In this document: piece by piece, positions 11,375 to 53,763 of the stretch
How the letters are laid out: each line of letters opens with the position of its first letter
How positions within the stretch are numbered: the first letter of the stretch is position 1
DNA from: Craspedostauros australis
Taxonomy: Eukaryota; Bacillariophyta; Bacillariophyceae; Mastogloiales; Achnanthaceae
DNA: 64,000 bases
Reading direction: 5' to 3'
Assembly: GCA_026770025.1 (NCBI GenBank)
Contig: JAMXDE010000036.1
Location: 1-64,000 of the forward strand
Notes under the pieces: model-generated
Seen by the model: only the letters and a program-made list of their open reading frames with translations
Database searches by the model: none
Told to the model about the DNA's origin: nothing
Position numbers and translations under genes: made by a program

Positions 11375-11440
11375 GATGAACATCGTCAATGGCAGATGAA
11401 CATCGTCAATGGCAGATGAACATTGTCAATGGCAAATGAA
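11375..11440. repeat. 20-bp tandem repeat, about three copies
   Basis: Unit AGATGAACATCGTCAATGGC is repeated three times with small changes. Related ATGAACTATCTGTCA strings follow at 11436 and recur in each higher-order unit of the next minisatellite. Confidence 0.85.
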
Positions 11441-11474
11441 CTATCTGTCAACATCGAATGAACTATTGTTAACA

Positions 11475-12420
11475 CATTCCAACTACAGGAGGATGGCACA
11501 AGTCCCATGAAATGGCTGACTTGTGGGGGAGGAGGGGGAACTACACCATTCCAACTACAGGAGGATGGCACAAGTCCCATGAAATGGCTGACTTGTGGGG
11601 GAGGAGGGGGAAGTCAACACCATTCCAACTACTGGAGGATGGCACAAGTCCCATGAAATGGCTGACTTGTGGGGGAGGAGGGGGAACAACACCATTCCAA
11701 CTACAGGAGGATGGCACAAGTCCCATGAAATGGTTGACTTGTGGGGGAGGAGGGGGAACAACACCACCAACTGTGATACTCACACATCCACATGCTCACA
11801 CACACACACACGCTGCCACACCATACAACCAGCCACAACACACAACAACACGTGAGACCGTGATGCAACAGTCAACACCAAATGAACTATCTGTCATCAT
11901 CAAATGAACTATCGTCAACATCATTCCAACTACAGGAGGATGGCACAAGTCCCATGAAATGGCTGACTTGTGGGGGAGGAGGGGGAACTACACCATTCCA
12001 ACTACAGGAGGATGGCACAAGTCCCATGAAATGGCTGACTTGTGGGGGAGGAGGGGGAAGTCAACACCATTCCAACTACTGGAGGATGGCACAAGTCCCA
12101 TGAAATGGCTGACTTGTGGGGGAGGAGGGGGAAGTCAACACCATTCCAACTACAGGAGGATGGCACAAGTCCCATGAAATGGCTGACTTGTGGGGGAGGA
12201 GGGGGAACAACACCATCAACTGTGATACTCACACATCCAGGTGCTCACACACACACACACTGCCACATGATACAACCAGCCACAACACACAACAACACGT
12301 GAGACCATGATGCAACAGTCAACTCCAAATGAACTATCTGTCAACATCAAATGAACTATTGTTAACACATTCCAACTACAGGAGGATGGCACAAGTCCCA
12401 TGAAATGGCTGACTTGTGCC
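11475..12420. repeat. 72/74-bp minisatellite in a 446-447 bp higher-order repeat
   Basis: The unit begins CATTCCAACTACAGGAGGAT, continues through CCATGAAATGGCTGACTTGTG and ends in GGGGGAGGAGGGGGAA. Copies start at 11475, 11547, 11621 and 11693, then 11922, 11994, 12068 and 12142, then a final partial copy at 12368 that runs into the recombinase reading frame. Groups of four are separated by a CA-rich linker, so the pattern repeats at 447 and 446 bp. G-runs (GGGGGAGGAGGGGG) on the plus strand could form quadruplexes. Confidence 0.9.
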
Positions 12421-15909: not shown

Positions 15910-16153
15910 GAGGTCGGTGGCAGCGGAAGATAATGATGTGCAGAGGTGAGCGCGTAATAGTGATATGGAATACGAGTACTCATCTGCAAGGCACGGGAAT
16001 TCCGCTGAAACTGTCACACGTTCGCATTCGACCACTCTGACTAATCATCAACTTCGTACGTGACTTGATTGGAACGACTCAACACTCGGAGTATATCCAC
16101 AATGATAACGTATATAACCGTTTAGTGTTTGAAATCCGAACACCATCTACCCC

Positions 16154-16434
16154 GTCAACAAACGTTGAAAGTGCTCAACAAACGTTGAAAGTGCTCAACA
16201 AACGTTGAAAGTACTGAACAAACGTTGAAAGTACTGAACAAACGTTGAAAGTACTCAACAAACGTTGAAAGTACTCAACAAACGTTGAAAGTACTCAACA
16301 AACGTTGAAAGTACTCAACAAACGTTGAAAGTACTCAACAAACGTTGAAAGTACTCAACAAACGTTGAAAGTACTCAACAAACGTTGAAAGTACTCAACA
16401 AGCGTTGAAAGTACTCAACACACATCGAGAGTAG
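16154..16434. repeat. Left 20-bp tandem array of the transposon
   Basis: Thirteen near-perfect and one degenerate copies of AACAAACGTTGAAAGTACTC with no spacers. The unit contains the palindrome AACGTT. The first two or three units have GTGC or CTGA variants. It is a candidate subterminal binding site array for a transposon protein. Confidence 0.95.
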
Positions 16435-16729
16435 TCATTGTTGGTATACGATCCCATGACAGTGCAGCAACAATCTCCCATGTTTGCGGCCTTCGTTCAG
16501 TCAGGGATATTCACAACAATGACATCACACATACACACACACACACATCACGCATCGTCTCCCAATTATCACAGTTATGTCAAAGAATCGTTTCGCGCCG
16601 TTACAAACATGATTCAAATTTGTCGGCCACACGACACTTGTGGCGAACGCGATGGCCTTCCTGTGTGTTCTGCTCCATGATAAATTAAAAGCCGTTCGTC
16701 ACACATCATCACCCTTCACCGATCATCCA

Positions 16730-17813
16730 TCAAGCAATCAAGACATTGGAAACATCAAGGAGAAGAAAACCAGCAAGGAGAAAGCACAGGCATTGACACA
16801 GCAACCATTGCAAACAGCCAAGGAGGAAGAAGAGCGGGCAGCGGCACCACACACATGACAAGCAGCCAAGGAGGAAGAACCACCAGCAGCAGCACAGCAA
16901 CCATCGCGAACATCCAAGGAGGAGGAAGCGAGAGCGCAGGAGCATGGCAATCATTGCAAGCAAGCAAAGAGGAGGAAGCCAGCGAGGAGGAAGCATGGGT
17001 GGCAGCACAGCAACTATCGCAAGCAGCCAGGGAGGAGGAGGAAGCATGGGCAGCAGCACAGCAACCATTGCAAGCAGCCATGGAGGAGCAAGCCGGCGAG
17101 GAGGAATGGCGAGCAGTGGCACCACAACCATCGCGAGCAGCCGAGGTGGAGGCAGCATACGCAGCAGCGCAGCGACCATCTCGACCAGCCAAAGAGGAGG
17201 AAGCCAGCGAGGAGGAAGAAGGCGAGGAGGAACGACGATCAGCGGCACAGCAACCATCGCAAGTATCCGAAGAGGAGGAAGCACGGCCAGCAGCACAGCA
17301 ACCACCACGAGCAGCCGAGGAGGAAGAAGCCGGCGAGGAAGAACGGCAGACAGCAGCACAGCAACCATCACAAGCAGCCAAAGAGGAGGAAACCAACGAG
17401 CGGGAACGGCGAGCAGCGATTCAGCAACTGTCGCGAGTAGCCAAGGAGGAGTTGCAAGCAGAAGCACAGCAACCATCGCAAGCAGACGAGGAGGAGAAGG
17501 CTCAGTCAGCACAACAACGATCGCAAGCAGCCAAAGAGGAGGAATCCAACAAGGAGGAATGGCGAGCAGCGGCACAGCAACCATCGCAGGCAGCCGAGGA
17601 GCAACCACAAGCACCAGCATCACAACCATCACAAACATCCGAGGAGGAAGCCAGCGAGGAGGAACCACGAGCAGCAGTACAGCAACCGTCGCAAGCAGCC
17701 GAAGAGGAGGAAGCCAACGAAGAGGAACGGCAAGCAGCGACACAGCAACCATCGCGAGCAGCCAAGGAGGAGGAAGCACGGACAGCAGTACGGCAACCAA
17801 CACAACAACAGAC
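16730..17813 (+). repeat. GC-rich minisatellite open in several frames
   Basis: Irregular repeats of about 60-90 bp are built from AGCAGCACAGCAACCATCGC and GAGGAGGAAGC. One plus frame reads Glu/Ala/Gln-rich (16855-18027). The plus frame continuous with the transposase reads Ser/Thr/Ala/Gly-rich from ATG 16944. The minus strand is also open (16730-17815). Only the frame that runs into the transposase has a claim to be translated, as a low-complexity N-terminal extension of about 290 residues. Confidence 0.75.
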
Positions 17814-18790
17814 ATGGAATTCTTGGACAGCGATGAAGTGCTTGCGCTTGGCCTGGAGTATGCCGGTTTTCATCAGACGAAGATGGCTAGCAGAACCAAG
17901 CAGACTCGTTTTGCTGCAACATACGGTCTGTGCCCTGAAAGCTTTGCTTCTCTCTTTGTCGATCTTTCTAACATTCAAACACACCAATTCAAACAGCCAC
18001 GTCCACATGATCTCTTTGTTGTCTTGAACTGGCTGAAGACATACTGCACAGAGCATGTGATGGCTGGTCGCTGGTGCTTAGACGAGAAAACCATCCGCGG
18101 TCTCATTTGGTCGTACCTGCCGGCCATTCAATCTCTGCTTCCAAACAAGGTAAGTGAAACAAAACTCATACTGGAGCGGATATTTCATGTGCTTTGCTCG
18201 AGCTGATCCTCTCATTCCAATATTTCTTTCCATTCATTCCGATCCCTCATCATCAGGTCATCTGGCCACCAAATACAGCAGAGCTCACAGGAGATGACAA
18301 GCACTTCATCATTACTGTTGACGGTGTTCATATCAAGATCCACGAACCGAGGATGGATCCAGGAGCAAAGTGGTACTCCCACAAGTCGCACTCGGCCGGA
18401 CTGACATATGAGCTTGGGATATCACTCACAGAGAGCAAGCTGGTGTGGATCAATGGTCCATTTCCGGCTTCAACTTCAGATCTTGTGATGTATCGCAAGC
18501 CAGGCGGTCTCAAATCCAAGATCCCACCAAATGCCCTGGTGATTGCAGATGGGGGGTACAACAACGAGCCCACAATCAGTGCCCCAAATCCGTGCGATTC
18601 TGCTGCTGTGAGGAAGTTCAAGAACAGAGCAAGAGCACGGCATGAGAGCTTCAACGGGAGGATAAAGAATTTCAGGGCACTCGCGGGCGGCTACCGGAAC
18701 CAACTGCACAAGCATCAGTGCTTATTTGAGACATGCTGTGTTCTGATTCAGTATGAGCTCGACAATGGGCACCCGATATTCGATATCTAA
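17814..18790 (+). CDS. PIF/Harbinger-type DDE transposase (DDE_Tnp_4-like), one intron
   Basis: Catalyses element excision and insertion. Exon 1 is 17814-18149, intron 18150-18256 (107 bp, GTAAGT...CAG, phase 0) and exon 2 18257-18790, giving 289 residues from ATG 17814. The DDE triad is visible: D134 in ITVDGVHIKIHEP, D210 in VIADGGY and E242 in RARHESFNGRIK. The context WYSHKSHSAGLTYELG and SDLVMYR is typical of algal Harbinger-like transposases. The N-terminal 110 residues form the usual helical DNA-binding part. The same frame stays open upstream to ATG 16944, which would add about 290 low-complexity residues. I favour 17814 because recognisable sequence starts there, but the longer form is possible. 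The frame appears intact. Confidence 0.85.
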
Positions 18791-18856
18791 TGGTAATGCA
18801 GGTAGAGAACTGTAGTTGATAACTGTTCCAAATACTTCACATTACTAGTTGGTTGT

Positions 18857-20768
18857 TTAGGCATGAGAAAAGAAGTCTGCGAGTTCATCATCAAAATCCT
18901 CAGTCTCACTGTCACTGTTGCCGTCACTGCTGGGAAGAGTCGTGTTGACTGCGAAGTCGATTGCTGCAGGCTTGCCGTCCTCGACAATCTCTTGAGACTT
19001 CATCTTCTTTGGACTATTATGGGCACCCGTCATGGGAGGAGAACGCTTGAGATGCTGCCCTGGGTCGCCCATGATTGTATCTGCTCTGCGGTTCGAATCC
19101 GGAGGGGCGCCACAAGCAACAGCTACAGGCTTGATTGCTGCATTCTTGAATGCTGCTGGCTGCTTCCTAGCAGCGGGCTCCAAAGTTCCCGATGGTGCAT
19201 TGGGCATCGTCAATCCCAATGCAGCAACGTCCTTCGCATTTGCGGCCGGATCCACACGTGTTGGACCAGCGACATTCTCATTGCTGTACGTTGGATCCGA
19301 AATTGTGCGATCGACGATGGTTCCATTGCTATAGGCTGGGTCCGGAGTTGTTTGATTGATGCCGATACCACCGTTGCTGTAGGCTGCATCCGGTTCTTCC
19401 AAACCGTGCTGGTATCTTGAGCTGGCACCACTTGACTTGTCGCTGATGCTCATGTCATCACTCTTGTTGTTGGTGATTGTAAATGACGCTGTATATGAAA
19501 GAAGTTGACATGTACATGCAAAAAGAGTAGTTAGTGTTTGTTTGCAAGTTCCTATTTGTGTGTTACTGCTATGTCATGCAAAGCACAAGTCAATCAGACG
19601 GAAGCCAATGGCTGTGTTACGCACCTGCTTTCTCCATCATGTTGAAGAACGCATCTTCATCATCGTTGGTCTCCTCTTCCAGGACGACCTTTCCATGGAA
19701 ACCCTTGATGGCGACTTTCCAGCTCACCATATTCATCGGGATCATGATGCTCTTCTGGGTCTTTTGGTGAGTCAGAATCTTGGGGATCGGACGGTACTTC
19801 CGAGTCAAGCGCTCTGGCTCGTTGCCAAAGAAGCTGGTGGAGAGCTCCATGCCATCAGGGCAGCGGAAGTACGTGTACTTCTTCTCGATGCCCCTGCTGA
19901 TCTCACGGTTGGCGATCTTGTTGAAGGCATTTCTCTCTCTGTCCATGTTCGGATCAACTTCGCCCTTCTTCAGGGCAAACATGGTCTCCGTGGACTTCTC
20001 GAGCATCAGGGCCGGGATGGCAGGCTCTTCGATCTTGATCGACTTGCCATCGTCGCAGAGTGAAGCCTTCACCTTTGCAACATCATCCTTGTCAAGAACG
20101 AACTTGCGAATGACGAGGCAATCGAAGGAGCGGCCGTCCACTACCACATCATCGACACGATAGATGATCGTGTTATCCGCGTTTTGGAATGGATGGGAGA
20201 GGTTGATGTTGTACTCCATCCCATGGTCCTCGTCGTCGGCATAGTCAGTGTCGTTGTCACTTGCCTTCGTCATCTTGCTGCCTGTGCTGAAGTTGATCCT
20301 TCGTTGGTGTTGTGGCGAAATTGTATTCGTTGCTGTTGACGCTGGCGTAGTGGTCACAACAATGGGAGGTCTTGATTGCGGGAGAGGTGTTTCGATGAGG
20401 GCTTCGTTGTGTTTGTGATCTGCACTGTGATGGGTTGTTGGCGTCGTTTTGTGAGCAGTATTGTTGCCTGTCAGGCCGAGGGCTGTTCGATGCGTTGCTC
20501 GCAGCGCTTTCATGCCAGCCTTGTCCAAGTTGCGCTCGAGGTAGTACTTCCTCTGCCTGCTCGCTGTGCGCTCCGCAGTGGCAGGTCCGCCAAGGATGTG
20601 CTGCTTGCTGTTGCAATACACGCGAAAGCTGTCGAAGCGGCTCGATTCGAGGAGATACTCGAGGATGGCCAGATCAACCTCTGGAGCTACCGTTTTGAAG
20701 TTTGAACGGTTGGGTGTTGCTTTGCGGGTACCAGCAGAGCGCGGCGTGGGTGAAACAAGATGTGCCAT
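18857..20768 (-). CDS. Transposon-borne hypothetical protein, one intron
   Basis: I do not recognise this family. Exon 1 runs from ATG 20768 to 19625 and the intron is 19624-19489 (136 bp; donor GTGCGT, acceptor TTTCATATACAG). Exon 2 is 19488-18857. The summed exon length is 1776 nt, a multiple of three, for 591 residues, which supports the splice. The N-terminus has a helical LAILEYLLESSRFDSFR region and a basic RQRKYYLERN stretch. The middle (about 190-370) is a folded-looking domain including FRCPDGMELSTSFFGNEPE. Exon 2 is Ser/Pro/Asn-rich with three YSNGT-like repeats, a KKMK basic patch and an acidic SDSETEDFDDELADFF end. It is convergent with the transposase (66 bp apart) and divergent from the small gene. 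It probably assists transposition, but that is inferred from location only. Confidence 0.7.
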
Positions 20769-21106
20769 TGCGCTGTCGTGAGAATTTGATTTTGCGTGTG
20801 CTCGTGAGTGTGCTCGTGAGTGTGCTCGTGAGTGTGGTTTCGGTGCGCGGGCTCTTGTGATTTTGTGGGAGTCGGATGTTGTGAGCCTCAGTTTGGCGAA
20901 CCCCCTCCATTTTCGTCGTCGTCCAAACGTCTACACGATCCACGAAAGAAGCAATTTGCCTTGGCCATCTAGCAAGATCAGGAGTAGAACCTACACAAAC
21001 AGCAACAGTGCCAACCACAATGGTGATCGCACCATCTTTGGGCAAGCAACGGCAACCACCAGATTTAAATCAATCCTACCATGTGCGAAGAGTCATGGCA
21101 AACGGC

Positions 21107-21112
21107 TATAAA
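21107..21112 (+). promoter_or_regulatory. Candidate TATA box in a divergent promoter
   Basis: TATAAA lies 148 bp upstream of ATG 21255, in the 486-bp gap between the two divergent transposon genes. No other element was identified. Confidence 0.3.
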
Positions 21113-21254
21113 CGGAACCAATGGCGCGAAAGTGGATAAGTGCGACGGCAATGGCAAATGCGTAGTATGAGCAAATACGACCGTGCCAATTCGAGTGCCA
21201 TCTGCGTCGAGGGTAGCACACAATACCTACAACAGAAGGTGCCAGCATAACAAC

Positions 21255-21752
21255 ATGGCAACACCAACACCAAAAAGCAAAATGAAATGGGCCGATGCCA
21301 AAAAGGTGCTGGAGGAGGACCTGAAAATGGGAGCTATCACACCCGGCATGACACCCAAACAAATCTACGAAGGTCGTGCTGAGTTTGGCAGCATCAACTA
21401 CGTCAACTTCCGAAACAACTTGAATCGACTTCGGAAGAAATGGAAAAAGTACAAGCAAGATGCGGACGAAGCCGACAAAGCGCTCCAAGCGTTTGAACGT
21501 ATGCACATTACACCACCGCAGACAACGAAGCTGAGATGGGATGGATCGGAAGCACAACGGAAGCTCAAGCAAGATATGCAGGATGAAGCATTGAAGAACT
21601 ATACATCAAGGCAACTTCATGACATGCGAGGGTGCTATCAGGTGTTCCCGATGGATCAATTTCGGAAACACTTTCACGCGGCGAAAAGATCAAAGTACGA
21701 GTCTTTGTATTGGCAGCAACGCAAGAAGGAGAAGAAGCGATCAAAGAGGTGA
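21255..21752 (+). CDS. Small basic protein with duplicated domain, likely DNA binding
   Basis: 165 residues from ATG 21255. Two halves align with each other. The first has KWADAKKVLEEDL, a TPKQIYEGR segment and FRNNLNRLRKKWKK. The second has RWDGSEAQRKLKQDM, TSRQLHDMRG and FRKHFHAAKRSKYES. Each half looks like a three-helix unit with a basic third helix. The C-terminus is strongly basic (QQRKKEKKRSKR). Harbinger elements often carry a second Myb/SANT-like DNA-binding gene needed for transposition, and this is the natural candidate for that role, though the Myb tryptophan pattern is not clear. An upstream in-frame GTG at 21183 was not chosen. Confidence 0.6.
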   Translation: MATPTPKSKMKWADAKKVLEEDLKMGAITPGMTPKQIYEGRAEFGSINYVNFRNNLNRLRKKWKKYKQDADEADKALQAFERMHITPPQTTKLRWDGSEAQRKLKQDMQDEALKNYTSRQLHDMRGCYQVFPMDQFRKHFHAAKRSKYESLYWQQRKKEKKRSKR

Positions 21753-23218
21753 AGCTGATAACGGTGTAGTAGCGAAATAGGTTATATCAATCAATGCAGC
21801 ATCACCCTTTTCACGTAGCTATGTATTTATCTTTTGTTTGATGGTAGAGTGAAGCAGAGGAGAGTACGATGCACCACACTCACTCTACAAACCGATAGCA
21901 CCAGTTGTAGAGTTTTTGGCTCCTCAGTGTGGGATTTTTCGTGTTGCATAGCCTAGCCTAGAGCAACATTGCAATCCATCCCAAATAATGCTCATGATGC
22001 TGTATCGCAACACCACATCACTAATTATTAAAAATAAATATACCATGCGAACGCCTCACTGGCGAAGTACAGGAATACTGAACTTAAATGCAAATTAACT
22101 TACAATGTAACATCATTTTGGTGGATAACGTGTGACCGTGTGCTCCGCAAAAACTCTGGATGGTGCCATGCTGCCATCACTTCGCCATCCAAGATGATGC
22201 CCAAAATCATCTTATTTTGTCCACCTGCATGCCTTGTTGTCTCCATCTACTCCATATGTATGCATCCCTGACAGGCATGCACGTTTAGATCTCCCTTCAA
22301 TGCACATCGTCAGCCCATCGCTGAAAGGCATCATTTTTGGAAATGAAGGATGGGTCGGAGGCAGCTGCTTCATCTGACCATATCTCCCACTCACAACCAT
22401 CTCTGTTCCCCCATGCAGCACACCTCGACCCATGATTCATTGAGTACACGTTGATGCATCCAAAATGCCTCAAGATGGATCTCCGGATTTTTATCCGCCC
22501 CGACGCTGGCGCCTTTGTCAGTTTTCTTTGTATAAAAAAAAATTGACTGCCACATTTGCTTGATTTCAACCTCTTCCGCTCAATATAACCGATCCCCACT
22601 TCTCCACCCCATTCCTGACTTGATGTTGAACACACCTTATGTGGGTGGGTTGGCGATGTGGTGGATTTTCAGATGCACCACCACACCAGCAAAGCCATGT
22701 GTTGGGTGCTGCAGCAACCCTCGAACACCGATTGCCCTTCACTCGTTCCTCCCCATCGGCCCCTTCCAGGCAGTCCTTCAACCTCAAACCTTGTAGGAGC
22801 CTTCACCTTGATCTCTTCAATGCGTCTTGCCCATCGATGGTTGACGGAATGGCTTGTATCGCCAATGCACAGCCCGTGCCCAACTTGCAAAATTGCCATC
22901 TTTTTACGCCCTTCGCTGTTTTCGCTCCCGCTGTCGGAAATGAGCCATGCCAATAGCGCCCTCTTGCCCATCCACCAAGATTTCCATGGCGGTTGCGTCT
23001 GTATGCTTGGATTTGGCAATGGACTGATGGTTGGTACAATGCCGTCCATGGCTTTCGACGGTCTTTGCGGAGTCTGGTTTGTTTCCCATTGTGTTGTTGT
23101 ATGGGGCGTCTTGGTGACGGTCTTTTCTTGCCCAAGTGAGTGTGGTGCAAAGCCGAGCACTCGACTCTCCACCAAAGCGAACTCTCTGCGAGTTGTGGTT
23201 GTTGTGGTGTCTGGTGGG
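21753..23218. other. Non-coding right part of the transposon
   Basis: No convincing gene. Several minus frames are open across 22297-23480, largely because the 20-bp array encodes STFNV-type repeats that extend them. None carries a recognisable motif. Confidence 0.45.
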
Positions 23219-23456
23219 AAACGTTGAAAGTACTGAACAAACGTTGAAAGTACTGAACAAACGTTGAAAGTACTGAACAAACGTTGAAAGTACTCAACAA
23301 ACGTTGAAAGTACTGAACAAACGTTGAAAGTACTGAACAAACGTTGAAAGTACTGAACAAACGTTGAAAGTACTCAACAAACGTTGAAAGTACTGAACAA
23401 ACGTTGAAAGTACTGAACAAACGTTGAAAGTACTCAACAAACGTTGAAAGTACTCG
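23219..23456. repeat. Right 20-bp tandem array of the transposon
   Basis: Twelve copies of the same unit as at 16154-16434, in the same orientation on the plus strand. Most units here have CTG where the left array has CTC (ACTGAACAAACGTTGAAAGT). Confidence 0.95.
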
Positions 23457-23621
23457 ATCGCTGAATAACGCACATAACGTCAAATAAACGGTTTATCTAC
23501 AGATCGACAGCGTGGGATTGAACCTGCCGACCAAAGGTATTTTGTCGTAAACACGATTGAATCGGGGACTGACCGAACACGTCCAGCCGCCAGTTTCAGC
23601 GGATTTCCCGTGCCTTGCTGG

Positions 23622-28728: not shown

Positions 28729-30654
28729 TCACTCTTTCGTCTTGAACATCTTGAGCTTGTCTTGAACTGATGCCAAGTGACGCACGATTCCCGGTGTACA
28801 CATATTGGTGCAGCCGAAGCGTCTCATGTCGGTGCACAAGATCGCAGGGTCGGTCAAGTAGTACTTGCCATTGGCCTTGACACCTTGAAGATCCGCCACA
28901 ATCAAGTACTCCTTGGAGAAGACGTACGAGAACTCCACGAAGCGAAGGAGCGACTCATCGATGTGATCGGGATGCCAGGCTCCCGTGTTGCTGCAGTACT
29001 TGGTGAATGGCGTTCCGGTGGTTGGCAGCACATCTTCACCACAGTAGAAACGGTTTCCGGCTGCTTCATTTCTGTCGCTGACCTCCTCCACCACGCATGC
29101 CTGCAGAACCTTGATCATGGCACAGTGCGAAGGACGGAAGGCTGACTTGTTGTATTCGTTGGCAAGGAAGCACGCGATGGATGATACCTCCATCTGTTGG
29201 AAGTATTGTTGTCTATCGTTGATTCTTGGCCCGTGATGCTTGTTGGTCTTGAGCACCATGGCGTTCTTCTTGAGGCGGAGTTCGGAATTGTGACGCGCCA
29301 GCCTTGCATGGAATGCAATGCGGCATGACCCCTCAGCAAACGGTGATCTTGCCAGTTGGAGCCGGAACTTGAGGTTGACGCGTTTCATGCAACAGAACCG
29401 AGAAATGTAGGTCTGGGCCAACTTGTTGACCGAGAGAGGTGTTCGCAAAGACTGGACGGAGATGCTGCGTGTGTTGCAGTACACGTTGACAGGCACCGTT
29501 GCTTTCCATCCAAAATATGTTGGAAAATCTTTGGAGATTGTGTATGGTTTCATCTTGGCCTTCTTCATCTTCCCTCTGTTTGCTTCATACTCCACTAACT
29601 TGCTCTGAGAGTCGATCAACGACACCGAGTTGAAGACAGAGTGGCGGACGCTCTTGACCACGACTTTCTCAACCATTTCGGGAGAAGAGAAGTCCACAAC
29701 CTCGAGATCAATGTTGTAGACGGACGCAAACCGCTCAATCATCTTGTCCGTTTTGCTGGTGATACGACCAAAGAAGACGTTCATGGTTCCACCCCTTGGA
29801 TTGGTCCTGAGTTTGGACAGCTCCGAGACGATGTTGATGCCTGGAGTGCCGGTCGGATAGTTGTCGCCAGACTCACCGTGGTTGTGGAATTCGGTTCCAT
29901 GACATGCATCATCACCAACGATGAAGGCGACTCTGGTGGGGTGCATCCAGGAGAGCTCATTGGCCTTTTGGATGCCAACCGCTATGTCTTCTGCACGGTC
30001 GTCGCTGCGAATGGACTTGACTCCCTTCAGGAAGCGTTCGAAGACACTGACATCATCCACGAAATCAAGTACTTGATATCGATCAGACCCATTGTAAATG
30101 TCTCGGTAGGCCACGAACCCCAACCGTAGATCCTTCCCCTTTCCATCAGCCTTGATCTTCTTGACAATCTTGCGGATGGTCTGCTTGGCACCGTCGATGT
30201 ATGGCCCCATTGAACCAGTAGCGTCCATGATGAACACGAGATCGATTTCGTTCTCCACAGCGTCGAGTTTGCCCAGCACGTCCTTGATATTGGATTCCCT
30301 CATGCGACGCTTCAGTCGGCATTGATGCAGCTTTGCGGCAAGCTCCTCGAGGGATTTGGTGGCATTGTCGAGTTGCTCACCAAAATTGCTGATCTCAGTG
30401 TTGCATTGAGAAAGTAGTTCGGAAGGTAGGGTTTTGCTCGTGTCCAACTTACATTTCTGCATCATGTCTTGGGCTGCCTTGATGCTTTCGTCGAGTTGCA
30501 CTCTTATTTTGGCCTCCTTCTTCTCCGCATCGCTGATCTGTTGTTGGATATCCTCCTCATTATCGCTGTCATCCTCTTCCTCCTCTCCGATCTCCTCGAG
30601 AACGGCCCCACCACCGCCGAGACTCACGAACTTTTTATTCTGTTTTGGCGGCAT
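28729..30654 (-). CDS. vWFA-domain alpha-protein kinase (VWKA-like)
   Basis: An atypical serine/threonine kinase of the alpha-kinase family (relatives: Dictyostelium VWKA and myosin heavy chain kinases, eEF2 kinase). The single ORF has 641 residues. Residues 20-120 are acidic and then coiled coil. A von Willebrand A domain spans about 137-335, with the metal-site motif DATGSMG at 144-150. The alpha-kinase domain spans about 425-635, with SPFAEGSCRIAFHA (about 437-450), the KYCSNTGAW segment, VADLQGVK (586-593) and LTDPAI (600-605) before the C-terminal nucleotide/metal loop. That loop reads FGCTNMCTPGI, where the common form has a second glycine in place of Cys619. ATG 30654 is the first Met and no intron is seen. 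It is the only clear cellular gene in the window, flanked by repeats on both sides. Substrates cannot be inferred. Confidence 0.92.
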   Translation of the reverse strand: MPPKQNKKFVSLGGGGAVLEEIGEEEEDDSDNEEDIQQQISDAEKKEAKIRVQLDESIKAAQDMMQKCKLDTSKTLPSELLSQCNTEISNFGEQLDNATKSLEELAAKLHQCRLKRRMRESNIKDVLGKLDAVENEIDLVFIMDATGSMGPYIDGAKQTIRKIVKKIKADGKGKDLRLGFVAYRDIYNGSDRYQVLDFVDDVSVFERFLKGVKSIRSDDRAEDIAVGIQKANELSWMHPTRVAFIVGDDACHGTEFHNHGESGDNYPTGTPGINIVSELSKLRTNPRGGTMNVFFGRITSKTDKMIERFASVYNIDLEVVDFSSPEMVEKVVVKSVRHSVFNSVSLIDSQSKLVEYEANRGKMKKAKMKPYTISKDFPTYFGWKATVPVNVYCNTRSISVQSLRTPLSVNKLAQTYISRFCCMKRVNLKFRLQLARSPFAEGSCRIAFHARLARHNSELRLKKNAMVLKTNKHHGPRINDRQQYFQQMEVSSIACFLANEYNKSAFRPSHCAMIKVLQACVVEEVSDRNEAAGNRFYCGEDVLPTTGTPFTKYCSNTGAWHPDHIDESLLRFVEFSYVFSKEYLIVADLQGVKANGKYYLTDPAILCTDMRRFGCTNMCTPGIVRHLASVQDKLKMFKTKE

Positions 30655-32245
30655 CGTACTTTCGTGTTCGAATTGTTTGTCAAGAGCTGATTGAGAATTA
30701 TGTTTGCCCGATGATGTGAGCTTGTGGCTTTCCCAGCTTCACAACTTGTTTGAGTTTCGGGGTTTTGTGAGAGCGTGGTTGGGGGATGTGTGGAGCACAT
30801 TGCTGCGCTCCTGTTGCATTCCGGTACACCTTCAAGACATGGTCGCACGCCAATTCGAACACGCACAAGATCGCATCAGATCGCACATGCTCCGAGTTTG
30901 CAACACAGTGCTGCGTTGATGCCGAATCTTGGAGTGCAGCGAGGTTTCAGAAGCGTTCGACGAAGTACCAGTCTCATCACTGGGCGGGTCGCCCAAAGAC
31001 TTCTGACAATTGCTCCACTGCTCTTCGACAGCTTCCCGACGATGGATCAGAAGTAAAGCTCTCCGAAAGAGTCACCTTCGCATCACGTTGCATTGTACTT
31101 TCGGGACATGGTCGCACCCTGGAGTTTGGACACGCAGAAGGTCACAGCAGATGTCATCCAGCTCGAGCGTGTGCTCGTAATGCTGTGTTGAGTTGTCACA
31201 GAATCTTGGGTGACTTGCGGCTTCCAGAAGCACCCGATGAAGTTCCGTCGTCGTGAACTTGGCACGTTGCGCTGGTGTGGGTTGAAGTACTCTCCGTGGA
31301 TATCTTGGAATCTGACTGATGGTGTTCGATTCTGTTCGATGCTTCGGTGCCACAGATCGGAAGTGACGATCTCTGGCAATCGTTGACACCAAGACGGAGA
31401 AGCAATTCCCAATGAGGGTGCGACCTCCTTTGCCACCATCAACACTGCGATGCAGGAGCCATGAGACGGAACTCTTTTGGTCGCTCCCATCTGCGTGTGA
31501 TCGAAAAGTGAGAACACCTGTGAACTTCCATTTTCGAAGATGTCATGGATGCCAGGCCTTTGATCGCATGCTTGAGTCAGTGTTTCTATCAACCCTGAAT
31601 CCCATTCCAGGCATTGGTGTTTGAACAAGCGGAGACACGAGGAGATCTCAGAGACGTCATTTCAATCCAGGGTTGGCGGTTGCTGGACGCCATGTGAGGA
31701 GGTATCTTGTGGTTCGGGCTATGACTGGACCGTCCGAATGCGTGTGATGTCAGCAACCAAGATCCAAACCGAAATGTGCTGTCGCCAGTCAGCCGGCGCG
31801 AGAAATGCAACGGCACAGGCAGCCATACTCACCTGGGAGAGTCAACACGTCCAGGAGGGAAGACAAGAGAATCAAGCCGAAGTGCTCTCTCTTTACTATC
31901 CAGAGTCTCTCTAACTGACTGCATGCTCATACCAGAACATGGTATCCCAAAGTACAAAAGGAGAAATCGAGTTGGATTTGCAGTGTTGCAGTCCTCGTTG
32001 TGGCCGATGCCGCTTGCTACATCCCATGCGTCGTCATGCTGCAGCCTGTTGTGTTGCTTTGCGTGTTGTGGTGCATCTTGCACTGATCTATAATACGTGT
32101 AACTCCCTTTGCGGCTCTATTGCACTGCCGTACTTGTGCTATCCTTCACGGTCACAGCCATGATTGCTGCCGTCGTCACAGCCACTGTCATCGCGACATC
32201 GTCCAACACTTACGCACGGCGTGGCCTGGTGACATGCTCATGCAC
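30655..32245. other. No recognisable gene; diverged duplication
   Basis: This is the upstream region of the kinase. About 30,818-31,000 and 31,090-31,255 are diverged copies of each other (CATGGTCGCAC, AATCTTGG, TTCCAGAAGC-type steps in order). Short frames on both strands show no domain. Confidence 0.45.
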
Positions 32246-44060: not shown

Positions 44061-47000
44061 TCAGGTCTTGTAGGTCGGGGAAGAGGACTCGGTGTGCCCT
44101 TTCCAGAAGAGGATGGGCTTCACGAGGGGCCAGAAGACAGCCCATGGAAGGAACTTCGTCATCACGTCGGCGACGTTCTGCGTGCTGGGGATCTTGATGA
44201 AGTAGAGGATGCCAGCGGCGACAGCGGACCGGACGCGATGGTAGGCCAGTGCGTTGTGGCGCTTGGAGAGCATGCTCTTGGGGATTGTGGAGGAGGTGAT
44301 GACGGACTGGTTGTCGCCCAGCATCCAGCTGGGGCCGTCGATCGGAATGCCCATTTCACGAAGGGCAAGACGGAGGGAGATGATCTGCTCCGTAGCTTGA
44401 CGGGCAGCGACGAACTCGGACCCGTAGGTGGCGGTCTCAACCGTGCCTTGACGCTTGGAGAACCATTCGATGGGGGTCTGGTTGACCAGATGGAGTGCAC
44501 CGGTGGCCGATCTGCCAGTGACTTGGCAGTGGAGAAGGTTGGCATCGACGAACGTGGTGGTTCGGACGGGCTTGCCTTTCGGCTCGGGGATGTCGTCCGG
44601 AATCTCCTCAGAGGTCTTCCTGTAGACGGAGTAGATCCAGTCATGGTTGGGAACCTCGTAGTGAAGATCGAAGCGGGGAACGCAGGTGCGGAAGCGGATG
44701 GCAGCATCAGGGTGCTTGCGAAGGTATCCGTACACTCGCTTGGCGCGGTCCAGATGGCCTTGGCGAGGAGCTGAGCGGAAGCGTGCCAGCGTCATGACGG
44801 CGACAGATATGTCAAACCGTCCGAGGGAGATACACCACTGGAGTGCACCGATGAGCGACATGAACTTGCGTTTGTCGGTTTCGCTGAGTTCGGAAGAGGT
44901 GTCGAGCTCCGGACTGTCGGCCTTGTCGAGAGGGCAGCTGATCTTGCGTGGAAGCTCGCCAAACATGCGTTCGTAGTTCTCCATCATCCGCTTGATGTAG
45001 GATTGCGGGGAGAGCTTGAGAGTGCCGTCGGGATCACGGCCGAAGTCAGCACCGAGATGGTACTTGATAGGACCAATTCCCTTGAGCTGGTACCCGTACT
45101 TCGAAGAGAGGATGTCGAAGAAAGCCTTGGGATCGGCCATTGTCGCAGTGAGGTCATCGACGTAGACGCAGACGTACTCCCAATGGGAGTTGGCGTCACG
45201 CATCCAGACGTCGGGATCGGAGCGGCATTGGAGGAAACCCATGTCGCGAAGGGTGTCGGCGAGAGCCTCATGGAATCGGGCGCCCGATGTGCGCAGGCCG
45301 TAGAGTGCCTTGACTATCTGCATGGTATGACCAGCGAAGTCACCGAATTCGTCGCCTGCAATGAAGCAGATGCGTTCTTGAGTGAAGGCCTCAAGATACG
45401 CATTGCCGATGTCTCCAACCCATGTTGGAATGCCGTTGAGTTCGCCGGCGAGGAGGGAGAGGCGAAGAGAGCGAAGACTGACCACACCTGCGTAGGATGC
45501 ATCCTTGCAGGGGTCGGTGAGGTGACCACCAGCAACGCAGCGCGCCTTGTGACGGAGGTCATGCTTCACAGCATAGACCCATTGGAGGCGGATCTTCTGG
45601 AAGCCGGAAGGGACAGGGGCGCCTTTGACGAGAGACTTGAAGGTGTGGTACCCGAAGAGTTGGTCCATCTCCTTCTTCTCAGCGTCGGCCCAAAAGGAGT
45701 TGTCGTTCTTGTCGTCGAGTCGCATCGCTTCCTTGTGGTTGCGAGGGACTTGGACACCGAACTGAAAGGTAGGGGCGTGGTTGAAGGTCTTGGACTTGGC
45801 GACGTGGACTTGTCGCTCGAGACGGTTGGTTCGGATGGCGAGGCGCTTGAGGCGCTTCCAGCCAGGCTCGTCGAGCAGCTCGTGGCGGCGGCTGTAGGCA
45901 GCGCAAGAGACGGGATCATCCTGAATCATGATGGAGAGGGGTTTAGTGGAGGTGGAGCCGTCTCCCCATTTGACGATGACGTTGAAGCTTGATCCCTTGT
46001 AGGAGGGAGAGGAAGATGAGAGGGGACCCTCGTGTCCGATGATGGAGTCGAACTCCCACTTGGCGTCGGGGTCGTCGTTGTGCTCCTGTTGCCGTTCGAT
46101 GATGTCGGCGAGCTCAACGTAGGAGATGAGGTCATGCGTCTCCCCATCGGCCAGTGCGAGTAGCATCTTGATGCGTTGGTGGTTGGCTGCGTCAAGGTCA
46201 TTGACCTTTTGCACCACCTCCGCTTTGACTTGCTGGCCATCCTTCTCGTGGATGAAGGTCATCCCAACGAGATCCTCGGGAGAGAACTTCGGGATGTGGA
46301 CCTTGGCATTCCCCACTGTTTCAGGGTCTGTGCCGCGGCGGTCAGCCAGGATGGAATCGGCGAGGGAGTGTACGATGGGATCGGAGTCAGGAGGGACGGA
46401 GATGTCGTCGTCTGGCTCCCCATTCGCCACATTCATGGCATCAGAGCCATCGTCCTCCCCAACAATGGGGAAGGGGAAGTCCGCACGAAGATTGCGGGTG
46501 GCAGAGTCGTTGGCAGGTCGGATGGCAGACCAAGGAAGAAGTCGTTGGGTCTCGTCATCGAGGACCCAGAAGGTAAGATCATCGCCTTTGTGAAGGCAGG
46601 GACCGGCCCAGCGTCCACTGCGCTCCTTGGACTGGCTGGGGAAGGCGGGGTTGTCAACCCGGTAGTAGACAGGTTGCCACCATCGGTAGGATAGGAACTT
46701 GGAGATGTCCGGTCGCTGTCCGAAGGCGGCTTGAAGGGGGGTGATGGAGCCAGCGGTGACCTGCGCGATGTGATTGAAGAGATCAACCACATAGAGCGTG
46801 CAGATCAGCCAGAAGCGGTCGGGAGTCCCCGTGCGATCCATCACACCGTTGGTTGTGCGTTTGATATCTTGGATCCGGCGTTCCGCGCCGTTCTGGTGTT
46901 GATGTTCCGGCTCACTCTGGTGATCACGGATGTGATACTGCCGGAGGATCTCCATAACCTTGTTACCGATCTGCGCCTTGGCATTATCGGACATCAGTAG

Positions 47001-49661
47001 GTCGGGAGCCCCGTGGCGTCGGATGAAGTCACGGAGAGTGTCGGAGATGCGGCTCTCGGATGGCATGGGAAAGCCGGCCGTGAACCGAGAGTCGAGGGCG
47101 ACGTGCACCTGAAGCATGGTGCAGCCACCATGGCCGGGAACCCCGTCGTCGTGAGCAGGGGTATCGGAGAAGAGCGTATCCATCGCAACCGTCTCATGGA
47201 GACGGTCAACGTTGGCCGCTGGGAACCGAGACTTGAAATGCTTGCGCATGGAGAAGCGCTCGGCGGTACGGTACCATTGAGAGGTACACCGAAGAGTGTC
47301 GCGAACGCGACGAGCTGGTATCCAGCCGAAGTGGGGTCGGAGAGCCTCGTAGTCGGCAGGCTTGCGAGTGGCAATGATGCTGCCCGGGTTGTCAGCGATG
47401 TCGGCTTGGCGAGCACCAGTGTAGGCCGTGAGAACGGTAGAGTTGTTCTCGCGGCGCTGGAGTGCTGCGGCGTCATCATCGTTGACGTCGTCGAGGTTCA
47501 TCTCCTGGTCGAGGGAAGAAGGGTCCCATTCGTCGTCCGCGGTGAAGTCGACATGTGGATACTTGTCGAGTTCGGAGCGGGTAGGCTTGGCCATGTCCAT
47601 GTAGGACAGGCCCTGCCGGACAGCCAGTGGGATGATGTGGCCTCCTGGTGTGATGATGGTCTGGCGACCTCCAGGGAGATTCCGTGGGCGTTCGTTGACA
47701 TCCATTCCGAAGGCACCAAGCTGGTTGGATGAATGAATGGTCTTGCCCTTTCCGTAGAGCGCGTATTGGTGGAATTTACCAATGATGGGCCCTTCGGTGG
47801 TCTGGATGAGACCAGCAACCGTACCGATGTCGAGGTTGGCGATGGCAGAGTCACCTATGCCACTGACGTCGGCGGTGTGTCCTGTCTTGCAGAGAACGAG
47901 GACGTCATCGCCAGCCAGGCCACCATTGGCACCGCTGTCGACGAGAGAGCCAGAGTGGTCCTTGACAAGCTTGTTGAAGCTGTACCGAACCACCGTGGAG
48001 TTGGCAAGGCGCCAGGTCTGGCCCTTGTAGACCAGTTGAGGAGTATCGTCAGACGAAGAGGTGGACTTGGTCTGTGCGAGAAGGCGATCGATGGCAGTGG
48101 ACTGGTCACCAGCCTTGGAAGAGTCCGTGTTACCAGCGGATGGAGTTGCGGAAGGAGTGTCGGTGGTACCTGAAGATGTGGCAGCGTTGTTGGCAGCTCG
48201 GTGGGAGTCAGCCTTGCCCTTGCCCTTGTTCTTGCGCCACTTGCCCTTTGCCTCAAGGAAAGCCTTACGCTGATCCTTGGACATCTCACGCCATTCATCA
48301 TTGGGGATGGAGCGACGATCGTCCTTGGCATAGTCCTTGCCATTTCCCTTGCCAGCAGAGCCGCCGGTCTTGGCGTTGTTGACCTTGCGCCGAGATGTGG
48401 TGCGAGGCTGGTTGGCATCGAGGGATTGTGCCTCATCTCGAACGAACTCGAGGAGGTCTTCGAAGGAGACACCGACCTTGATGAAGCCGCGAGATTGCTT
48501 GTGACGTTGACGGGAGTTGGACTTCACGTTGGTGTAGGCCCGAGTCAAGTCGACATCAGGACCGATGGCGGTACGCAACCATTGCTGCTTGACCGCCTCA
48601 TCGACACATACATCATCAAGCTCTTCGATGTCATCGAGCTTGGTTTCCCAGGCATCGAGGAATTGCTCGCGGGTCTTGGTCCAAGATTGGTCCAATCGGA
48701 AGGCGACGATGGCATCTCTGTACTTGATGGACAGAGTCTCGCCAACGACGCCACTGGTGTAGCTATCGACGAGATCGGCGTAGGCTGCACGGCCATCGCA
48801 AGACTTCTTGTAGGCACGGATGATGCGCCGACTCTTGGAAGTCTTGACATGCTCAGTGAGCACGGCGAAGAGGTAGCGATTCTGGCTCGCGAAGAAGGCC
48901 TCGTCCTTGGGTGCCGGCATGAAATCCATATCGAGATGGTGGTTGAGTCCATGGGAGAAGGAAAGAGTCTCGAAGGTCCGCATGAAGGTGAGGAAGTGCT
49001 TGTCGTCCTTCAGTGTTGGGAGCGACAGGGTCTCTCGCTTGGTCGCCTTGCTGAACTCCTTGACGTAGTCAGCCGGTAGCTCCATGGCTTGGACACCTTG
49101 GAAGTTGGAAGAGGGTGCCATGGATGGAGTCACAGGCGGTTGCGGGAAGGCAGGATCAGGCACCGAAGCCGAAGGTTCGAATCCGAAGTTCACATGCGGA
49201 GGTTCTTCGGCCACAGGACGGAATGCGGATGCCGGAGTGGTGTGGTTGCCCATGCCCATGCCCATGCCAATTGGAGATGGCACAGGTGTGCTTGCAGTCG
49301 AATGCGAGCGCGAAGAAGGAAGAGAAGGGTTGCTCTGCTCAGCCGTGAACGCCATGAAGGTAGCGCGATCAAGCTCGTTCCAGGTATCGTCATCCAGAAT
49401 GGACTGGGTGAGGTACCACTTGCCAAGGTTCAGGATCTTGCGGATGTGGTTGATGCCGAGGGATGCGGTGAAAGGCTCGCCATCATCGGTGTTGCCACTG
49501 AGATGGAAGCTGCGAAGGTCATCCTCAGTGAGAGAGACGAGGTCGAGAGGGCTGATGATGTCCTCGTGAGCGATGATATCGCGAGGAGTTGAGTCGGAAG
49601 GGATGCCGATGACACCGAGGATATGATCCAAGGTGGCGAGGTCCGTCTCAGCAGTCGTCAT
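44061..49661 (-). CDS. Copia Gag-Pol polyprotein, copy 1
   Basis: 1866 residues in one frame, no frameshift. Order: Gag (1-about 480), protease (DSGANGG, D575), integrase (D828, D892, E927), reverse transcriptase (YVDD at 1500-1503) and RNase H (D1706, E1749, D1783). Gag lacks a CCHC zinc knuckle; a Lys-rich segment with IPNDEWREMSKDQRKAF stands where one is often found. The only amino-acid difference from copy 2 that I found is Ile for Val in YQLKG-I/V-GPIKYHL, plus one silent change near 45,143. The tail TETATYGSEFVAAR and KRHNALAYHRVR resembles diatom copia elements. All catalytic residues are present, so activity is possible. Confidence 0.97.
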   Translation of the reverse strand: MTTAETDLATLDHILGVIGIPSDSTPRDIIAHEDIISPLDLVSLTEDDLRSFHLSGNTDDGEPFTASLGINHIRKILNLGKWYLTQSILDDDTWNELDRATFMAFTAEQSNPSLPSSRSHSTASTPVPSPIGMGMGMGNHTTPASAFRPVAEEPPHVNFGFEPSASVPDPAFPQPPVTPSMAPSSNFQGVQAMELPADYVKEFSKATKRETLSLPTLKDDKHFLTFMRTFETLSFSHGLNHHLDMDFMPAPKDEAFFASQNRYLFAVLTEHVKTSKSRRIIRAYKKSCDGRAAYADLVDSYTSGVVGETLSIKYRDAIVAFRLDQSWTKTREQFLDAWETKLDDIEELDDVCVDEAVKQQWLRTAIGPDVDLTRAYTNVKSNSRQRHKQSRGFIKVGVSFEDLLEFVRDEAQSLDANQPRTTSRRKVNNAKTGGSAGKGNGKDYAKDDRRSIPNDEWREMSKDQRKAFLEAKGKWRKNKGKGKADSHRAANNAATSSGTTDTPSATPSAGNTDSSKAGDQSTAIDRLLAQTKSTSSSDDTPQLVYKGQTWRLANSTVVRYSFNKLVKDHSGSLVDSGANGGLAGDDVLVLCKTGHTADVSGIGDSAIANLDIGTVAGLIQTTEGPIIGKFHQYALYGKGKTIHSSNQLGAFGMDVNERPRNLPGGRQTIITPGGHIIPLAVRQGLSYMDMAKPTRSELDKYPHVDFTADDEWDPSSLDQEMNLDDVNDDDAAALQRRENNSTVLTAYTGARQADIADNPGSIIATRKPADYEALRPHFGWIPARRVRDTLRCTSQWYRTAERFSMRKHFKSRFPAANVDRLHETVAMDTLFSDTPAHDDGVPGHGGCTMLQVHVALDSRFTAGFPMPSESRISDTLRDFIRRHGAPDLLMSDNAKAQIGNKVMEILRQYHIRDHQSEPEHQHQNGAERRIQDIKRTTNGVMDRTGTPDRFWLICTLYVVDLFNHIAQVTAGSITPLQAAFGQRPDISKFLSYRWWQPVYYRVDNPAFPSQSKERSGRWAGPCLHKGDDLTFWVLDDETQRLLPWSAIRPANDSATRNLRADFPFPIVGEDDGSDAMNVANGEPDDDISVPPDSDPIVHSLADSILADRRGTDPETVGNAKVHIPKFSPEDLVGMTFIHEKDGQQVKAEVVQKVNDLDAANHQRIKMLLALADGETHDLISYVELADIIERQQEHNDDPDAKWEFDSIIGHEGPLSSSSPSYKGSSFNVIVKWGDGSTSTKPLSIMIQDDPVSCAAYSRRHELLDEPGWKRLKRLAIRTNRLERQVHVAKSKTFNHAPTFQFGVQVPRNHKEAMRLDDKNDNSFWADAEKKEMDQLFGYHTFKSLVKGAPVPSGFQKIRLQWVYAVKHDLRHKARCVAGGHLTDPCKDASYAGVVSLRSLRLSLLAGELNGIPTWVGDIGNAYLEAFTQERICFIAGDEFGDFAGHTMQIVKALYGLRTSGARFHEALADTLRDMGFLQCRSDPDVWMRDANSHWEYVCVYVDDLTATMADPKAFFDILSSKYGYQLKGIGPIKYHLGADFGRDPDGTLKLSPQSYIKRMMENYERMFGELPRKISCPLDKADSPELDTSSELSETDKRKFMSLIGALQWCISLGRFDISVAVMTLARFRSAPRQGHLDRAKRVYGYLRKHPDAAIRFRTCVPRFDLHYEVPNHDWIYSVYRKTSEEIPDDIPEPKGKPVRTTTFVDANLLHCQVTGRSATGALHLVNQTPIEWFSKRQGTVETATYGSEFVAARQATEQIISLRLALREMGIPIDGPSWMLGDNQSVITSSTIPKSMLSKRHNALAYHRVRSAVAAGILYFIKIPSTQNVADVMTKFLPWAVFWPLVKPILFWKGHTESSSPTYKT

Positions 49662-49981
49662 GATGAGCGATGGATGGATGGAGAGAGCGGATGCGGATGC
49701 TGGAGGCTGAAGGATAGCTGAGGCTGGAGTGCACTGACTGAATCGTCTTCTGGTGCGGGAGGGTGCTGCAGGAAGTCTTGGATGGCTGAGTGGGAAGGCC
49801 CGAACTCAGCAGAGGGACCGAAAGGAGGGCGTTCTGCGGATGCGAGAAAGCCGAAGGAAAGCCGAAATCACGTCGTCACGTGATGGAAGGTGAAGGGATC
49901 GCTCGTGGTTGAACGAGGGATGAAGGATGGATGGATTGTCACGCAATCAATTCAGTAGGTGAAAGCTTGTGACTGTTAATC

Positions 49982-53443: not shown

Positions 53444-53763
53444 GATTAACAGTCACAAGCTTTCACCTACTGAATTGATTGCGTGACAATCCATCCATCC
53501 TTCATCCCTCGTTCAACCACGAGCGATCCCTTCACCTTCCATCACGTGACGACGTGATTTCGGCTTTCCTTCGGCTTTCTCGCATCCGCAGAACGCCCTC
53601 CTTTCGGTCCCTCTGCTGAGTTCGGGCCTTCCCACTCAGCCATCCAAGACTTCCTGCAGCACCCTCCCGCACCAGAAGACGATTCAGTCAGTGCACTCCA
53701 GCCTCAGCTATCCTTCAGCCTCCAGCATCCGCATCCGCTCTCTCCATCCATCCATCGCTCATC

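Follow-up and report, generated by a model that had tools for sequence, protein, structure and literature searches.

The element and its arrays

The first 64,000 nucleotides of contig JAMXDE010000036.1 (assembly GCA_026770025.1) from Craspedostauros australis (Bacillariophyta), hereafter the window, contain a complete transposon of the PHIS (PIF/Harbinger) superfamily at 15987-23617, with a telomeric CCTAAC array about 16 kb away. The element carries three genes and, inside each end, an array of 20-bp units that points in the same direction on both sides. Its superfamily is established by a DDE_Tnp_4-type transposase (PF13359, E 7e-15; 55.4 bits against a cut-off of 24.8), the DDE residues, terminal inverted repeats (TIRs) and a 3-bp target-site duplication (TSD). 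Comparison of the inverted repeats places the 27-bp TIRs at 15987-16013 (+) and 23591-23617 (-), with 28-nt arms that are 96% complementary, and comparison of the flanks places the two CTG copies of the TSD at 15984-15986 and 23618-23620. A first-pass annotation, made from the letters of the window alone, had described a 7.6-kb Harbinger-type unit of three genes with precise inverted ends and a CTG duplication. All of this stands, and only its right boundary moves: because of the CTG flanks, the element ends at 23617, one base short of the 23618 first given.

The left array (16155-16420, +) holds 13 units with cores TGAAAGTA or TGAAAGTG, directed inward, and its first core lies 180 bp from the tip. 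The right array (23219-23454, +) holds 12 units in the orientation of the left array, directed outward, and its last core lies 172 bp from the tip. Tandem Repeats Finder (TRF) assigns a period of 20 to both (13.3 units, score 497, on the left; 11.8 units, score 451, on the right). By core count the arrays comprise 13 and 12 units with every core forward, in line with the 12-14 same-orientation copies of the first-pass annotation. Each array is preceded by a conserved block. The left end runs inward from the TIR through about 100 bp of variable DNA to the block TAACGTnTATAAC...CCGAACACC (16106-16144, +), kept in four families with left spacers 48-58% identical, and then to the array. Read inward as well, the right end passes from the TIR through variable DNA to a block (23466-23490, +) that contains three TAACG-like repeats and adjoins the array.

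The unit pattern, allowing up to three mismatches, occurs at 215 places genome-wide versus 32 for a backward control, an excess over chance. Of 197 matches within examined loci, 188 lie in copies of the window's family (family A) and nine in a sister family, B. Among the matches listed, the arrays do not occur widely without the genes, and gene-free units are confined to derivatives with the same TIRs.

Copies, derivatives and target sites

A search of the host genome (74.8 Mb in 90 contigs) with the left end returned 17 matches at 16 loci, the window included, and all of these loci were read. A second full copy on C68 (L009) is 99.3% identical to the window element over the main stretch and has shorter arrays. 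Full-size members of sister family B lie at L018 and L021, the former with one stop in the frame of the 165-aa protein (p165) described below. Further relatives form families C (L024), C' (L025) and C60 (L029/L030). The combination of ends, arrays and gene trio, which the first-pass annotation proposed to look for elsewhere, recurs in families A, B, C and C'.

Several copies lack the genes. Four of these (L012, L013, L015 and L016) are 4.6 kb long and 96.9-99.5% identical to one another, with an interior that presumably encodes a Copia-like RNase H fragment. Five more (L017, L019, L020, L022 and L023) are short, at 1.1-1.4 kb. Of the 12 gene-less copies read over their full length, 11 keep both arrays, namely these nine and the short copies L036 and L039. 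A copy was classed as gene-less when its DNA matches to the window element were limited to the ends or short stretches or, for L036 and L039, by its length (967 and 1303 bp).

The twelfth copy, L010, is a merged element of 572 bp that consists of a left end, one array and a right end. Its ends are identical to those of the C1 element (L011/L028) at 165/165 positions on the left and 158/158 on the right, and its simplest origin would be a deletion of the whole interval between two same-direction arrays. The left end shared by C1 and L010 is 99% like that of the window; the right end is 73% like that of the window and 91% like that of L012. Shared arrays would allow such a swap of ends.

Identical 3-bp flanks border all 22 complete copies, and 21 of these duplications are CWG and one is TAG. 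The 22 comprise 20 copies of families A-C (the window, L009, L010, L011/L028, L012, L013, L015-L025, L029/L030, L036 and L039) and one each of the distant groups D and E, whose tips were placed by visual inspection on the model of family A, one base inward of the end of the inverted arm. A single end was read in four copies (L014, L035, L037 and L038), two of which, L014 and L035, have CCG next to the left tip. An alignment of empty sites had also been suggested. A search with the flanks of eight copies, each pair joined, recovered junction-spanning paralogous sites for two: 38 places for L020 (93-98% identical over 219-220 of 220 bases) and two for L009 (93%). For the other six copies, no junction-spanning match appeared among the 40 of 891 candidates that were scored, a list crowded by the L020 repeat. 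A second TIR, of the CAAGACACGGGAA type, lies at 9833-9859 of L020, 8.5 kb downstream of the L020 element, and probably marks the left tip of a further C'-like element.

Array geometry and core across families

The same-direction arrays turn out, moreover, to be a conserved end architecture across families. In 24/24 left ends of families A, B and the C group, 180-183 bp separate the first core from the tip, and in 19/20 right ends the corresponding distance of the last core is 171-176 bp; the remaining right end, that of L039, measures 195 bp, and its outermost unit has the degenerate core TGAAAGC. Units follow one another in steps of 20 bp, or 40 bp where a unit is degenerate. Both arrays share one orientation in all 19 complete two-array copies of families A-C. 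Forward cores number 225 on the left and 185 on the right, or 398 distinct cores once the 12 of L010, which enter both sums, are counted a single time; two cores are reversed. Between five families the left spacers share only 48-58% identity, so the place and phase of the array outlast the sequence. This geometry was first noticed in 16 copies and then checked on copies chosen otherwise. In the fresh copies C60, picked by its genes, and L035-L038, picked by a 32-33-bp TIR match, the array stands at 183 in 5/5, and the left geometry of L039, picked as a short copy, agrees.

The number of cores per array ranges from 3 to 13. Consensus units, aligned on the core from ten arrays (five families, each represented by one copy, with degenerate units uncounted here and in the core counts), read ACAAACGTTGAAAGTACTCA in A, CGTTTCAATGAAAGTAATAA in C, TTCGATGAAAGTA in C' and TTCAATGAAACTAAT in C60. 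The unit of family B is GTTGAAACTA, with the other half variable; its left and right arrays differ in this free half and keep core and phase. What persists across families is C(G/A)(T/A)TGAAA(G/C)TA. Units were picked by TGAAA[GC]T, which forces full conservation at positions 0-6, and the informative positions are the unforced ones: C at -3 in 91% and A at +7 in 98%. The first-pass annotation centred the site on AACGTT, but the units of families C, C' and C60 do not carry this hexamer as a fixed component. Because the unit varies between families while TGAAA[G/C]TA stays, the latter replaces AACGTT as the candidate site.

A core-like stretch also occurs, inverted, in the inner halves of the TIRs, as CTGAAACT in the left TIR of the window and as TTGAAACT, TTGAAACA and CCGAAACT. 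At the right tips, this stretch fits the strict core pattern in 15/16 copies, 25 bp from the tip.

Genes of the element

The order transposase (+), 591-aa protein (p591, -) and p165 (+) is kept in families A, B, C and C' and in the distant group D (L026), which bears out the three-gene unit of the first-pass annotation. The transposase is modelled with two exons, at 17814-18149 and 18257-18790 (+), that splice into a protein of 289 aa. Exon 2 contains the PF13359 domain and the residues D134, D210 and E242, which we take to be catalytic from their position in the motif. No domain besides the DDE domain was found in the transposase. The gene for p591 has its first exon at 19625-20768 and its second, which runs to the stop, at 18857-19488 (-), joined by a GT..AG splice. 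Exon 2 encodes the motif D-x-[IV]-M-x-D-x-x-x-H-x-K-R, present also in groups D and F. The basic protein p165, a candidate array binder, is encoded by an open reading frame with a stop at 21255-21752 (+).

Selection on the trio was estimated as dN/dS by NG86 for the six pairs among A, B, C and C'. Transposase exon 1 gives 0.09-0.15 in 6/6 pairs, and exon 2 gives 0.04-0.05 in 3/6, the remaining three being saturated. The values for p591 are 0.21-0.33 in 6/6 pairs for exon 1 and 0.30-0.53 in 5/6 for exon 2. For p165, dN/dS is 0.11 between A and B and 0.06 between C and C', with the other four pairs saturated; against group D, 2/4 pairs give 0.26 and 0.43. Every value lies below 1; all three genes are under purifying selection.

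The searches of protein families and structures put no name to either accessory protein. A Pfam search with p165 and both p591 frames gave no match (best E 0.015, one member each, taken as chance), and a PDB sequence search with p165 and p591 exon 1 gave nothing below E 0.3, in agreement with the first-pass remark that the 591-aa protein is unrecognisable. A tblastn search of viral contigs for relatives of p165 returned none. Two related domains of about 75 residues in p165, also noticed at first pass, are weakly supported by hhalign (E 1.2e-4, probability 55%). The N-terminal block of p591 was tried as a third copy of this domain and found no support (E 0.6-0.7). Pfam is likewise blank for a Myb/SANT domain in p165 and p591. 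Single-sequence models of p165 are weak (pLDDT 50 at full length; 69 for domain 1, which is helical); such models are too poor to name a fold and give no evidence for a new one.

Two further stretches of the element are of uncertain nature. At 16797-17813 (+), about 1 kb of low-complexity repeats 5' of the transposase is open in frame by tandem-repeat and frame analysis, its translation being uncertain; the tandem periods are multiples of 3 in several cases, though not in all. Matches to exon 1 in families A-C fall within frames of 423-672 aa in 12/13 cases and of 121 aa in one, and the stretch may encode a long disordered N-terminal tail of the transposase. The region 21867-23130 was considered as a fourth gene and rejected: codon periodicity is absent, and substitutions relative to family B are spread evenly over codon positions (82/89/85, about 420 each). 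This non-coding stretch is about 80% identical to family B, which exceeds the identity of much of the element and may reflect constraint or later exchange.

Other features lie elsewhere in the window. The telomeric CCTAAC array occupies 1-364 with 60 copies, and subtelomeric 28-bp and ~200-bp repeats follow to about 8.8 kb. A 447-bp tandem duplication at 11433-12418, 96% identical, overlaps repeats of about 72 bp. Two nearly identical open frames of 1914 aa lie in opposite orientation about 4 kb apart (44061-49805, -; 53620-59364, +) and are presumably Copia-like retrotransposons, a name assigned from motifs. A frame of 669 aa at 28729-30738 (-) has the appearance, we assume, of a VWA domain with an alpha-kinase-like part.

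Distant relatives

Group D (L026) has a transposase exon 2 that is 52% identical to that of the window, the TIR GACCGTCCGG, a CTG TSD and TAACGT-like blocks. Its TTCTGAA repeats are irregular, with four forward and one reverse on the left and seven and one on the right; one forward repeat lies outside the element. Group E (L031, 36% identical) has 29-bp arrays at both ends, and its left and right consensus agree at 27/29 positions in the same direction and at 22/29 when reversed, the unit being partly palindromic. Group F (L027, 38% identical) has kilobase-long inverted minisatellite ends instead of same-direction arrays. These ends (L027 1-1600 and 6100-8001) are 97-100% complementary and foldback-like, with tips beyond the stretch examined. 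Same-direction arrays are neither confined to the 20-bp unit nor universal among relatives.

The transposase tree joins A-C with D (88/91) and E with F (100/99), and separates the trio-bearing groups from control loci at 64/74, with long branches. These controls, L032-L034, carry transposases 32-40% identical, with no match to p165 or p591 and no paired short-unit arrays; the control is weak, as the ends of these loci are undefined and more than 100 other distant transposase matches stand beside these three. The first-pass annotation had asked whether transposase copies lie outside such ends. The three distant transposases lie in loci without such arrays, and the near relatives read all lie inside such ends.

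Relation to known systems

The superfamily of the element is known, and its end architecture appears to be new. The suggestion of a wholly undescribed system is not supported, as CWG duplications (PMC4482050) and subterminal repeats in a Medicago Harbinger family (PMC2213677) are already published. The NuwaI group is defined by CWG duplications in the part of the source consulted (PMC4482050). It shares with the element a DDE transposase of the same superfamily, a 3-bp CWG duplication (21/22 here, with one TAG) and a second open reading frame, which in the element is a candidate for DNA binding. NuwaI TIRs usually start with GGG, whereas families A-C start with CAAG and only group E, placed by eye, starts with GGG. 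The element also differs in its three genes, in its polar 20-bp arrays and in that no Myb/SANT domain was found by Pfam. NuwaI is reported there from animal genomes only, and the words "tandem" and "subterminal" are absent from that text (PMC4482050). By its TSD the element would be a candidate member of NuwaI, with a differing TIR start. In the same source, the PIF/Harbinger group duplicates TWA (PMC4482050). The element lies outside that group in the strict sense because its duplications are CWG in 21 cases and TAG in one.

In zebrafish and rice, as described in the portions consulted, a partner protein binds short motifs at the ends and meets the transposase, and both are needed for movement (PMC9710019; PMC2836001). 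The Myb-like protein of Harbinger3_DR recognises a 9-bp subterminal motif (PMC9710019; PMC2836001). The element resembles Harbinger3_DR and mPing/Ping in having a transposase and separate proteins, one of which might read a short subterminal or TIR motif. It differs in that their partner is Myb-like, that arrays go unmentioned in those portions (PMC9710019; PMC2836001) and that duplications in the PIF/Harbinger group are TWA (PMC4482050).

Tandem repeats near transposon ends have precedents. Medicago MtPH-A6-4 is a Harbinger family with element-linked subterminal tandem repeats, but its unit is 60 bp; according to the text consulted, 18/23 members carry 2 to 35 repeats, either at a single end or with opposite orientation at the two ends (PMC2213677). 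In families A-C, 19/19 complete two-array copies have one orientation. Galileo (PMC3688188) and Muta1 (PMC5225508) also carry tandem repeats near the ends of cut-and-paste transposons, and the THAP domain of Galileo has binding sites in its repeats (PMC3688188). These are P-element and Mutator superfamily members, respectively, and in the sections consulted their repeats lie within long inverted TIRs and hence are inverted between ends (PMC3688188; PMC5225508). No same-orientation subterminal arrays in a Harbinger-type element were found in the literature searched, which scarcely covers subscription journals and Repbase.

Proposed function of the arrays

The reading we favour, at a probability of roughly 60%, is that the element is a cut-and-paste PHIS transposon whose mobility depends on its two polar subterminal arrays. 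Repeats at a fixed distance from the tips and in the same direction suggest that a DNA-binding protein of the element assembles there to start the jump. The arrays would most likely be polar binding platforms for p165 or p591. By analogy with the zebrafish and rice partner proteins, p165 is the more probable binder, with p591 as the alternative, and it would bind the TGAAA(G/C)TA core of each unit. The 20-bp repeat is close to two helical turns, so the protein might form a one-faced, head-to-tail assembly that starts about 170-185 bp from each tip. This assembly would bring the DDE transposase to the TIRs, and the transposase would then cut and rejoin at CWG-like targets. The identity of the binder, recruitment, synapsis and any role of array direction are inferences. 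As a side effect of the same-direction layout, recombination between arrays would delete the interior or swap ends and leave the termini intact.

Other functions of the arrays, or none, must be weighed. The arrays could be inherited minisatellites without a function, produced in a single ancestor by slippage or gap repair, their place and direction being historical. Their copy number does vary from 3 to 13, tandem repeats abound in the window (79 TRF rows), and the 60-bp repeats of Medicago MtPH-A6-4 are tied to gap repair by their authors in the part consulted (PMC2213677). Yet core, phase, direction and tip distance are held despite the divergence of the left spacers (48-58% identity), family B arrays keep core and phase while differing in the free half, and both arrays are retained in all gene-less copies read end to end but the merged L010, which makes an idle origin improbable. 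The same retention argues against control of transcription, in which the arrays would act as promoter, enhancer or insulator of the element genes. The left array does lie upstream of the transposase gene, and conserved TAACGT blocks stand beside both arrays, but 0/3 genes start at the right array, and the coding end closest to it, that of p165, is about 1.5 kb away; we consider this role about as improbable as an idle origin.

A reading in which the arrays are bound not by p165 or p591 but by a host factor or the transposase is unlikely but merits somewhat more credence. In family B, the TIR inner half CCGTTGAAACTG is similar to the array core CGTTGAAACTA, so a single protein might recognise the two, and the N-terminal exon of the transposase is conserved. 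Against this stand the two further element genes under selection and the report that characterised PIF/Harbinger transposases, in the text consulted, have no obvious binding domain and need a partner (PMC2836001). That the arrays serve chiefly as a recombination device for short derivatives and end shuffling is very improbable. L010, with C1 ends and one array left, and the unequal likeness of the C1/L010 ends to those of the window attest to such events; however, one merged copy is found among 20 complete A-C copies, and it is difficult to see how a device of this kind would be selected for; such selection would also fail to preserve the core.

Dependence of mobility on polar arrays must also be set against several observations. 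L010, the only such copy seen, has a single array, and both reverse core matches fall in the right array of C60. The likeness between TIR and core is short and by rough estimate would arise by chance about 2% of the time. In group D, 2/13 repeats are reversed and the repeats are irregular, and group F has inverted minisatellite ends; because of these two groups, a phased 20-bp array is not required by every relative of the trio. No DNA-binding domain is recognisable by sequence in p165, and a fold search with its weak single-sequence models gave no usable match. The array and end counts, finally, apply to the set of ends outside C43, C70, C49, C39, C28, C18, C5:2.93M, C48 and C2:2.79M.

A broader proposal is tentative, and we regard it as possible rather than probable. 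The element might represent a DNA transposon lineage whose ends are handed: long, strictly phased, same-direction, iteron-like arrays, set at a constant distance from tips that are otherwise inverted, would nucleate polar filaments of a new type of accessory protein. Left and right would then be distinguished before a two-fold symmetric transposase acts, and array and binder would turn over together while phase, place and direction stay.

The same-direction layout departs from the left-right symmetry that cut-and-paste ends usually show. It also offers a simple route to short non-autonomous copies; inverted repeats, as reported for Medicago in the part consulted, favour inversions instead (PMC2213677). 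Each end repeats its presumed sites about ten times with constant phase and position, and several diverged families share this layout. Because these families carry matching genes, the binder, its site and the geometry would be directly testable and could be swapped between families.

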